A stretch of DNA of 64,000 bases from positions 1 to 64,000 of the forward strand of contig NZ_QXMH01000002.1 of assembly GCF_003568665.1 (NCBI RefSeq), written 5' to 3'. Numbering within the stretch: the first letter of the stretch is position 1; each line of letters opens with the position of its first letter. Origin of the DNA: Chitinophaga alhagiae. GTDB taxonomy: Bacteria > Bacteroidota > Bacteroidia > Chitinophagales > Chitinophagaceae. Both the position numbers and the translations under genes were made by a program. The notes beneath the pieces were generated by a model. It worked only from the letters and a program-made list of their open reading frames with translations. It was not told the DNA's origin and ran no database searches. Of the stretch, positions 34,831-52,713 are shown piece by piece.

Positions 34831-34861
34831 TTTGTATATTCATTTAGGATTTTTACCTTTG
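34831..34861 (+). promoter_or_regulatory. Promoter of the OmpA-family gene
   Basis: TTTG (34831-34834) and TACCTTTG (34854-34861) are separated by exactly 19 bases, a perfect Bacteroidota promoter. The leader is about 53 bases and A-rich just before the ATG at 34921, as is common in well-translated genes of this phylum. Confidence 0.82.
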
Positions 34862-34920: not shown

Positions 34921-36465
34921 ATGGCAAGCAAAAAGTACTTACTACTGGCAGGTGCAATGACTCTTCTGGCAGCATCTCCAGGTTTTGCGCAGGTTAAACC
35001 CTCATATGACGCCCTGGACTCCTCTAAAGTTTCGGCTAAGAATATGGCGCAATTCAACAGCTTCAGGAACAACCAGTCCGACTACCCGGCGAAACCCAGA
35101 AACATGTGGGAACTCGGTTTGCATGGTGGTTACCACTTTATTAAAGGCGACGTTGCCTCCCTGCCCGGTTTTGGCGGCGGTATCTCAATCAGAAAAGCAC
35201 TGGGTCATACCTTCTCCATCAGAGGTGAGTATACCGGTTCTTTCGACTACGGTCTGGATTATCAATTGAAACCCAATACTGTAGGTGGTGCGTACAACAC
35301 TACTGCCAATGCTAACGGCGGTATGGTCGTTCCCGCTTACAAAACTGCCACTCACCAACTGTCTTTGGACGTGATCGCTTCTCTGAGCAACATCCTGTTC
35401 TACAAAGCACAGCCTAAAGTGAACTGGTATGTATTGGCCGGTTACGGTATCATGGCTGCTGACGTTGACGTAGACGCACTGGGTCCCAATGGCGGTGCTT
35501 ACAACTACGGTAACTTCAACTTTGGTCGTAAGAAAAAAGACATCCGCGACGAGCTGAAAAATCTGCATGACAAGAAGTATGAGCAAAACGCTCCTTCTCA
35601 GGGCAACCGCATCCAGATCGGCCGTAACGATGACAACCAGCTCCTGCGCCATGCACTGGAAGTAGGTACTGGTATCGCTTTCAAAGTGTCTAAACGTTTC
35701 AACATCGGTGTTGAAGAAAAACTGACCCTGCCCTTCGACGATTACCTGGACGGTTACACCGCCGGTGCTTTCGATGGCAGCAAAGACTTCTTCTCTTACA
35801 CCAGCGTTCGCCTGAACTTCAACCTGGGCAACCCCAACAAACGTGTTGAACCGCTCTGGTGGGTTAACCCGCTGGACTTCGCTTACAACGAGCTGAACAG
35901 CCCCCGCCGCATGAAACTGCCTACTCCGGTTCTGCCTGATTCTGACGGTGACGGCGTAACTGACCAGTTCGACCGCGAGCCCAACACCCCTGCAGGTGCA
36001 CCTGTTGATTCTCACGGTGTAGCTAAAGATACAGACGGTGACGGCGTTCCTGACTACAAAGACAAACAACTCATCACTCCGACTTATTGCCAGCCTGTTG
36101 ACGCTGACGGCGTAGGCAAATGCCCGGATCCTGAGTGCTGCAAAAACATGGTTCAAGCTACCCCTTGCGCTAGCCTGGTTCTGCCCAGCGTAGCTTTCAA
36201 AGGCAGCTCTACCAAAATTTCCAGCGATAACGAAGCTATCCTGAGCAGCGTGGCTAACTCCCTGCGCTCCAATCCTTCTTGTAATGTACTGGTTACCGGC
36301 CACGCTGGTGCCAAAGGCAAGAAAGGCGGTGTAGACCTGAGCAGCCGTCGTGTTGACGCTGTGATCGACTACCTGGCTGACAAACAAGGTATTGACCGCG
36401 GCCGCTTCATCAAACAAAACACTCCGGGTGAATCTTCAACTGTAGACCTGGCTCCCGCCAACTAA
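34921..36465 (+). CDS. OmpA-family outer membrane protein with thrombospondin type 3 repeats
   Basis: The 514-residue protein has a signal peptide ending GFAQ, an N-terminal beta-barrel-like region (about residues 55-305), Asp-rich calcium-binding-type repeats (DSDGDGVTD from residue 340, DTDGDGVPD following), a Cys-rich segment and a C-terminal OmpA-like domain (about 415-514). In that domain the usual GHTDxxG reads GHAGAKG (460-466), so the aspartate that holds diaminopimelate is Gly463, while the LSSRR arginine (476) remains. The gene prefers GGT, GCT, GTT and CGT codons more than its neighbours, which suggests high expression; the strong promoter agrees. It ends at a strong terminator. 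Confidence 0.9.
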   Translation: MASKKYLLLAGAMTLLAASPGFAQVKPSYDALDSSKVSAKNMAQFNSFRNNQSDYPAKPRNMWELGLHGGYHFIKGDVASLPGFGGGISIRKALGHTFSIRGEYTGSFDYGLDYQLKPNTVGGAYNTTANANGGMVVPAYKTATHQLSLDVIASLSNILFYKAQPKVNWYVLAGYGIMAADVDVDALGPNGGAYNYGNFNFGRKKKDIRDELKNLHDKKYEQNAPSQGNRIQIGRNDDNQLLRHALEVGTGIAFKVSKRFNIGVEEKLTLPFDDYLDGYTAGAFDGSKDFFSYTSVRLNFNLGNPNKRVEPLWWVNPLDFAYNELNSPRRMKLPTPVLPDSDGDGVTDQFDREPNTPAGAPVDSHGVAKDTDGDGVPDYKDKQLITPTYCQPVDADGVGKCPDPECCKNMVQATPCASLVLPSVAFKGSSTKISSDNEAILSSVANSLRSNPSCNVLVTGHAGAKGKKGGVDLSSRRVDAVIDYLADKQGIDRGRFIKQNTPGESSTVDLAPAN

Positions 36466-36488: not shown

Positions 36489-36526
36489 AAAAAAAGAGGC
36501 CCGCGGGAAAGCGGGCCTCTTTTTTA
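36489..36526 (+). terminator. Intrinsic terminator of the OmpA-family gene
   Basis: AAAAAGAGGCCCGC (36491-36504) pairs perfectly with GCGGGCCTCTTTTT (36511-36524). Confidence 0.95.
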
Positions 36527-51246: not shown

Positions 51247-52713
51247 TTACTTTTCAAATAGTTCAAACATTTCTTCCAGCACCTTTTTATCATCAAACGG
51301 GTGTTTCACGCCGCTGACCTCCTGGTACTTTTCGTGCCCCTTGCCGGCCACGAGTATGATATCTTCCTGCTGCGCCAGGCTGCAGGCAGTTTTGATGGCT
51401 TCCCGGCGGTCTGCGATAGAAATGGTCTTTTTCCGCTGATGCACGGCCACGCCGGCTTCCATTTGCCGGATAATTTCCCCGGGGTCTTCAGACCGCGGGT
51501 TGTCTGACGTGAATATCACCTTGTCACTGTGCTCTGCGGCTACTTCGCCCATTACCGGGCGTTTGGCCGTATCCCGGTCTCCCCCGCAGCCCACCACGGT
51601 AATGATCTGCTCATGGCCCTGGCGCAAGTTCTTGATGGTGGCCAGCACATTGAGCAGCGCATCAGGCGTGTGAGCGTAGTCTACAATGCCTATTACGCGC
51701 ATGTTCTGTGAAATGATATAATCGAAGCGGCCTTCGGCGCCCTGTATGTTGCTGAGGGCGGCCAGCACGCGGTCTTTATCTTCTTCCAGCAACACCGCCG
51801 CGCCGTATACGGCCAGCAGGTTGTAGGCGTTGAACTCGCCGATGAGGCGGAAGTGGACTTCCTTTTCACCTACCTGCATCACCAGCCCGGTGAGGTTGTT
51901 CTCCAGTATCCTGCCCTTGAAGTCTGCCATGCTGCGCAGGCTGTAGGAGGCTTTGCGGGCTTTGGTGTTTTGCAGCATCACGTTCCCGCGTTTATCGTCC
52001 AGGTTGGTGAGCGCAAAGGCCTGTGTGGGCAGCTGGTCAAAGAAGCTCTTTTTTACACGGATGTATTCGTCAAATGTTTTATGGTAGTCCAGGTGGTCAT
52101 GCGTGATATTGGAAAAGATGCCCCCGGCAAACTTCAGTCCGGCAATACGTTGCTGGTGAATGGCATGGGAGCTTACTTCCATAAACGCAAAGAGGCAACC
52201 TTCCGCCACCATGTCTGCCAGCAGCGCGTTGAGGCTGACGGGGTCAGGCGTGGTGTGCGTGGCGGGCACTATCCGCTCGCCTATCTGGTTCTGCACGGTG
52301 GAGAGCAGGCCGCAATGGTAGCCCAGCCCGGTGAAGAGGCGGAACAGGAGAGTGGCAATGGTGGTTTTGCCGTTGGTGCCTGTAACGCCTACCAGTTTCA
52401 GCTGGTGGGAGGGGTTATCATAAAAGTTGCCGGCCATTACGCCGCTGGCCTGGGCACTGCTGGCCACCTGCACATAACAAACATTGGGCGCCAGGGTATC
52501 CGGCAGGGTTTCGCAAACCACGGCCGCGGCGCCCTGCGCTATGGCGGTGGGGATATACGCATGCCCGTCTGCCGCCGCGCCGCGAATGGCAAAGAATACG
52601 CTGCCTTCCGTTACCCGCCTTGAATCTATAAACAGCGCCCGTACGGCAATGTCGTTATTGCCCTGTACGTTCAGGATGTTTACGTTGTATAATATTTCGC
52701 GCAGCGTTTTCAT
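51247..52713 (-). CDS. murE: UDP-MurNAc-tripeptide synthetase, meso-diaminopimelate type
   Basis: The 488-residue Mur ligase adds the third stem-peptide residue. The P-loop GVTGTNGKTT lies at residues 109-118 and EVSSHAIHQQRI and NITHDHLDYHKTFDEY follow. The DNPR motif (FTSDNPRSEDPG, about residue 405) is the mark of enzymes that add meso-diaminopimelate instead of lysine, so the peptidoglycan is of the DAP type. murF, which usually follows murE, is not in this cluster. Confidence 0.97.
   Translation of the reverse strand: MKTLREILYNVNILNVQGNNDIAVRALFIDSRRVTEGSVFFAIRGAAADGHAYIPTAIAQGAAAVVCETLPDTLAPNVCYVQVASSAQASGVMAGNFYDNPSHQLKLVGVTGTNGKTTIATLLFRLFTGLGYHCGLLSTVQNQIGERIVPATHTTPDPVSLNALLADMVAEGCLFAFMEVSSHAIHQQRIAGLKFAGGIFSNITHDHLDYHKTFDEYIRVKKSFFDQLPTQAFALTNLDDKRGNVMLQNTKARKASYSLRSMADFKGRILENNLTGLVMQVGEKEVHFRLIGEFNAYNLLAVYGAAVLLEEDKDRVLAALSNIQGAEGRFDYIISQNMRVIGIVDYAHTPDALLNVLATIKNLRQGHEQIITVVGCGGDRDTAKRPVMGEVAAEHSDKVIFTSDNPRSEDPGEIIRQMEAGVAVHQRKKTISIADRREAIKTACSLAQQEDIILVAGKGHEKYQEVSGVKHPFDDKKVLEEMFELFEK

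Follow-up and report, generated by a model that had tools for sequence, protein, structure and literature searches.

OmpA-like domains are commonly assumed to bind peptidoglycan on the strength of their fold. What becomes of this function when the residues that grip the wall are missing? The question is raised by one gene in the 64,000-nucleotide stretch of Chitinophaga alhagiae DNA that we analysed (hereafter the window), which encodes an OmpA-family outer-membrane protein. A sequence-only reading of this DNA had noticed that the first ligand motif of the protein reads GHAGAKG, without the ligand aspartate, and that LSSRR is retained. Both points were confirmed, at residues 460-466 and 473-477.

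An OmpA-family protein with an altered ligand pocket

Between residues 63 and 302 of the protein, eight strands were predicted from secondary structure, and in structure comparison the predicted barrel is close to that of OmpA (9fzc, Z 17.0) and to 4rlc (Z 16.1). The predicted structure thus places an 8-stranded barrel ahead of the OmpA-like domain, as in proteins of the OmpA/OprF type (Table 1). The profile PF00691 matches residues 426-497 with 34.4 bits (cut-off 27.2), covering only profile positions 2-75 of 98. None of the 16 OmpA-related equivalog families of NCBIfam that were listed (PA1041 anchor, YiaD, Pal and others) scored above its cut-off, the best reaching 61.9 against 250 bits. 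Modelled alone, the C-terminal domain gave a pLDDT of 84.9 and a pTM of 0.77, and its model superposes on 9uu2 (Z 15.0, 98 residues, 1.9 Å) and on 3td5, the Acinetobacter domain with bound pentapeptide (Z 13.2, 102 residues, 2.5 Å). Structure prediction against known OmpA-like domains, proposed earlier as a check, therefore indicates that the fold is kept.

Table 1. Positions in the window of the OmpA-family gene, its parts and flanks, and of murE
Feature	Coordinates	Strand	Basis
Bacteroidota-type promoter candidate TTTG-N19-TACCTTTG, upstream of the OmpA-family gene	34831..34861	+	pattern match; weak
OmpA-family outer-membrane protein gene, 514 aa	34921..36465	+	ORF, profile matches, secondary structure
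Signal-like N-terminus			judged by eye
Predicted 8-stranded beta-barrel, residues 60-305	35098..35835	+	secondary structure; matches to OmpA, OprF and NspA barrels
TSP3-like repeats, residues 338-384	35932..36072	+	12.3 bits, under the Pfam cut-off of 25; 5wtl match
Conserved C390, C401, C406, C407 (residues 390-407)	36088..36141	+	91 to 95 of 96 rows
Compact OmpA-like domain without NRR segment, residues 411-514	36151..36462	+	predicted structure, alignment
C416, putative disulfide partner of C454	36166..36168	+	alignment
C454, putative disulfide partner of C416	36280..36282	+	alignment
GHAGAKG (460-466) where GHTDxxG is expected; ligand Asp lost	36298..36318	+	motif, alignment, HMM
K468	36322..36324	+	alignment; 150/150 Chitinophagaceae rows
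LSSRR (473-477), R477 at the kept ligand arginine position	36337..36351	+	motif, alignment, HMM
Terminator-like hairpin 3' of the OmpA-family gene	36490..36525	.	called on - strand; palindrome, A run before, T run after
murE, DAP-adding ligase with DNPR motif	51247..52713	-	profile match

Promoters of Bacteroidota follow the consensus TTTG-N19-TACCTTTG, and the candidate found here is weak, since the pattern matches twice in the window, where 1.05 matches are expected, and at least twice in 27 of 100 shuffles. Terminator-like sites are as scarce as chance would have them (2 in the region, 2.4 expected). The protein had been called abundant, which codon usage does not prove: its ENC of 39.0 ranks 7th among 65 ORFs of at least 250 aa, antisense shadows counted in.

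The motif for peptidoglycan binding is described as TD(x)7NxxLSxxRA, and its key residues are Asp, Asn and Arg (PMC5104382). In the window protein the ligand Asp position falls on G463 if the alignment is anchored on GH and on A462 if it is anchored on LSxxR, and neither is acidic. An HMM built from 54 canonical orthologues aligns the protein with Gly for Asp, Gly for Asn and Arg for Arg, with one deletion. The ligand Asp is thus missing, the Asn is a Gly and the Arg is present as R477. The change is larger than the sequence-only reading had it, because it extends to the ligand Asn, takes one residue out of the loop and leaves no NRR segment. From G460 to R477 the loop counts 18 residues, against 19 in 55 of 55 canonical rows and 15 to 18 in family rows (n=115). 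Its net charge is +4, with a mean of 1.35 in the family and of 0.53 in canonical rows. Over residues 455-512, however, the family is less basic (mean net charge 0.39 against 1.96), which counts against a repurposed basic site. We rejected chance or sequencing error as the source of GHAGAKG, since GHAG is common to all 54 rows of at least 70% identity, a set in which two C-terminal fragments from split genes and a number of identical copies are counted along with the window row.

Distribution and conservation of the change

The comparison covered 218 rows after duplicate removal. Of these, 150 carry the label Chitinophagaceae: 90 from genomes of the window's family, whose code f1 we took to be Chitinophagaceae from the named matches, and 60 named. 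Among the 147 genomes searched for the orthologue, 144 had a match and 87 gave counted rows, the rest including identical copies. Left out were matches that stopped short of query residue 480 (L032, L105), copies of the window and repeats (L009, L132, L136) and six rows with identical C-termini. The neighbours of the locus, which we take to be a recJ-type and a polyprenyl-synthase-type gene, were sought within at most 6 kb on either side in 68 loci. The recJ-type gene was present in 49/49 loci labelled Chitinophaga and 10/19 other named loci, and the polyprenyl-synthase-type gene in 49/49 and 13/19. By these shared neighbours, the OmpA-family genes are positional orthologues in most named loci.

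The strict motif TD(x)7NxxLSxxR occurs in none of the 150 Chitinophagaceae rows, against 53 of the 64 rows outside the family, and the NRR segment in none against 55 of 64. Alignment of orthologues had been suggested as a way to learn whether the loss is shared, and it is common to all 150 rows compared. The motif is also missing from four unlabelled rows of the family type (L082, L091, L096 and L098), which are not counted in the 150. The ligand-Asp column holds Asp in 58 of the 64 outside rows; in the family it holds Asp in 2 rows and Glu in 14, which counts against a repurposing of the pocket. Residue 477 is always basic in the family (132 R, 17 H, 1 K), and with Arg kept in so many rows the old ligand could still be bound.

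Some rows of f4 and f8, two other families of the same order, have an intermediate pocket, in which the NRR segment is lost, a lysine stands at the K468 column and the Asn is kept. In f8 (L205, L206, L219 and L228-L230) the ligand-Asp column holds Glu (5 rows) or Gly (1 row), and these six are the only outside rows without Asp. In f4 (L227, L232) the Asp is present in a longer loop.

A tree of 179 rows, for which 13 of the 51 Chitinophaga-like rows were retained, was built from the barrel and linker only, the C-terminal domain being excluded. Apart from L103 and L104, the family rows fall into a single clade of 113 rows (SH 96), none of which has the motif. The family label changes five times on this tree, not once, with L103 and L104 outside the clade and three unlabelled rows inside it. 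The placement of L103 and L104 is doubtful, as both have a short N-terminal part and carry a long-branch warning. The distribution over the 218 rows and the 113-row clade are most simply explained if the loss of the motif is old and shared in the family and if f4 and f8 underwent a partial change of their own.

Several loci depart from the common gene structure. Two Chitinophaga records (L083, L099) have the orthologue divided between two or three frames, by assembly error or because the gene is broken. One match (L032, in G054) stops at query residue 451, the end of a 467-codon open frame; the pocket half may be absent from this copy, or the contig or frame may be interrupted at that point. 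Adjacent copies of the gene occur in some family genomes (G082:C33, G098:C10, G073:C79). A metagenome-assembled genome named Flavihumibacter (L070) carries a Chitinophaga-type gene with 73% identity and the same three neighbours, which makes its label doubtful.

Selection was compared on 52 Chitinophaga-type rows only, using 400 random pairs and region borders set by us. The pocket half of the domain (residues 457-514) is under strong purifying selection within Chitinophaga, with 95.5% identity and a dN/dS of 0.083, the best conserved of the regions compared. The linker (306-410) is nearly as constrained (91.0%, 0.088), followed by residues 1-59 (78.6%, 0.167) and the barrel (73.3%, 0.227). 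The first part of the domain, residues 411-456, is the least conserved (70.7%, 0.319). The pocket half has fewer synonymous differences as well (pS 0.351), and part of its conservation may therefore come from codon bias.

Cysteines set the family apart too. Relative to orthologues outside the family, the window protein has gained C416/C454 and K468; the two cysteines occur together in 149 of 150 family rows and in 0 of 64 outside, and in the window protein they are the sole pair within the OmpA-like domain. In a set of 115 rows, with Chitinophaga-like rows thinned, further cysteines come in pairs: 462 with 505 (29/29), 474 with a column near 500 (11/11) and 425 with 507 (2/2). No row has two of these pair kinds; two other cysteines follow residue 455 in L179, and L188 carries an unpaired one. 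The paired extra cysteines might form alternative disulfides around the former ligand loop. We dropped covariation as proof of disulfides and treat it as suggestive only, since its independent origins are too few: 462/505 gave only 3 independent pairs on well supported branches (sign test, p 0.25).

Other OmpA domains, wall type and known systems

A pocket without its Asp could reflect an altered wall, which we consider unlikely. That the cell has DAP-type peptidoglycan had been read from the DNPR motif of MurE, and this was borne out: over the 485 of its 488 residues that were scanned, MurE scores 622.9 bits with the DAP-ligase model NF001126 (cut-off 373). The genome of the window has 9 OmpA-domain matches in 8 ORFs, and all three ligand residues stand together in a domain of each of the 7 other ORFs. 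For four additional family genomes, loci were obtained for 30 of 35 OmpA-domain matches. Three of these are orthologues, without Asp and Asn, and each of the 27 others holds a domain with Asp, Asn and Arg, the ligand residues being assigned across an insertion in MotB-like proteins. A DAP-adding MurE and intact paralogues make the wall ordinary by these signs, so the change belongs to this OmpA-family protein.

One ORF of the window genome (G000:C1:1596625-1597275; L007, L008) has two OmpA domains, the first copy lacking Asp and Arg and the second canonical. A similar two-domain protein (L267, in G106), which belongs to the 27 non-orthologous loci, has Asn for Asp in the first copy.

The closest precedent for an OmpA domain without the Asp is domain 3 of Tp0624 from Treponema pallidum, described as having an OmpA-like fold, the ligand Asp changed to Ala, the Arg kept and a basic pocket (PMC5104382). 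In the experiments described there, soaking and calorimetry found no DAP binding (PMC5104382). The likeness to the window protein extends to the fold (predicted here), the lost Asp, the kept Arg and the proposed basic pocket. In the description consulted, in contrast, Tp0624 has three domains and no barrel is mentioned (PMC5104382). The wall of Treponema is given as having ornithine in place of DAP (PMC5104382), and the change in Tp0624 fits such a wall, whereas here MurE is of the DAP type and the other domains keep Asp, Asn and Arg. Our case would thus differ from this precedent by its DAP-type wall and by involving a whole barrel-bearing orthologue group.

The window protein shares an 8-stranded barrel or an OmpA-like C-terminal fold, both predicted, with Acinetobacter OmpA (3td5), OprF (4rlc, 5u1h) and Capnocytophaga OmpA (5wtl). 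Compared with canonical OmpA-family proteins, it lacks the Asp, the Asn, one loop residue and the NRR segment. PorE is another OmpA-like domain of Bacteroidota, and it keeps the residues at issue: Asp576, Asn584 and Arg591 of its C-terminal domain, whose structure was determined together with a peptidoglycan fragment, are described as binding that fragment (PMC7192894, 6top). Mutation of the Asp has been studied in Acinetobacter OmpA, in a paper that also reports earlier calorimetry with D271A and R286A (PMC6572160). Among the matches listed in a literature search, no title concerned loss of the pocket motif in Chitinophagaceae.

Possible roles of the altered domain

Asp and Asn are lost in 150 of 150 family rows, the paralogues are intact and MurE is of the DAP type. 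We infer from this, on good support, that the usual mode of DAP binding should not be open to the domain. The earlier suggestion that the protein may not hold the cell wall thus stands as far as the usual DAP grip is concerned. Two of the three wall-holding residues are gone, yet the region is strongly conserved, so the pocket-altered protein has probably taken on another job. We put the probability that the canonical DAP grip is lost and the domain repurposed at about 0.6.

Under repurposing, the C-terminal domain would descend from a normal peptidoglycan-binding OmpA domain, whose DAP grip would have been lost in the ancestor of the Chitinophagaceae. The alignment shows what this entailed: other residues took the places of Asp and Asn, the ligand loop lost length and the NRR segment disappeared. 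The predicted OmpA-like fold would be kept, braced by putative disulfides, and the old pocket face would present the invariant K468 beside the old arginine position 477 (R, H or K). Instead of anchoring the protein to DAP, the domain would then offer a periplasmic docking surface to a partner protein or an anionic group, and wall anchoring would fall to those other OmpA-domain proteins in which Asp, Asn and Arg are intact. A more specific version is offered tentatively, at somewhat less than even odds: a DAP-walled family may have turned one OmpA pocket into a conserved, disulfide-braced basic site for some other ligand in the periplasm, either a partner protein or a wall-peptide carboxylate, with the DAP grip left to its other OmpA proteins.

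Peptidoglycan might still be bound in a different pose, with K468 and R477 holding stem-peptide carboxylates (that of D-Glu or of DAP) in place of the DAP amine. All 150 family rows have both K468 and a basic residue at 477, and conservation of the pocket half within Chitinophaga is strong, as such binding would have it. The authors of the Tp0624 study also speculate that its similar Asp-less basic pocket coordinates D-Glu (PMC5104382). We nevertheless hold this pose to be unlikely, given that Asn and Asp are both lost, that the loop is shortened and that in 29 of 115 rows a Cys pair would link the loop with the turn that precedes the last strand.

It is more doubtful still that another acid (E504, D472, or the Glu at 463 of some species) replaces the Asp and lets DAP bind normally. 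Residue 504 has the attraction of being acidic (Asp or Glu) in 141 of the 150 family rows and of adjoining position 505, where a Cys in other species goes together with Cys 462; an acid is also found there in 48 of 64 outside rows, however, so E504 is not a new replacement, though it might still stand in for the Asp. Some acid lies between residues 460 and 472 in 109 of 150 rows, at varying positions, and between 461 and 471 in 62, again at varying positions; both counts speak against repurposing. Asp 472 occurs in only 50 of 150 rows, all Chitinophaga-like, and Glu 463 in only 14, so no single loop acid is common to the family, and the Asn that went with the Asp is lost as well. Neutral decay, which would leave a relic that merely folds, could account for the joint absence of several ligand features and for the low conservation of residues 411-456, and is hardly credible when the altered half shows the highest identity and lowest dN/dS of the regions compared within Chitinophaga and K468 is invariant across the 150 family rows.

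Repurposing of the domain is thus our preferred reading. Binding inferred from the fold alone would misread one outer-membrane protein across the whole family. Since a cell with a DAP-type wall here carries intact domains side by side with altered ones, the Chitinophagaceae also offer an internal comparison of what the OmpA-like fold does without its DAP residues.
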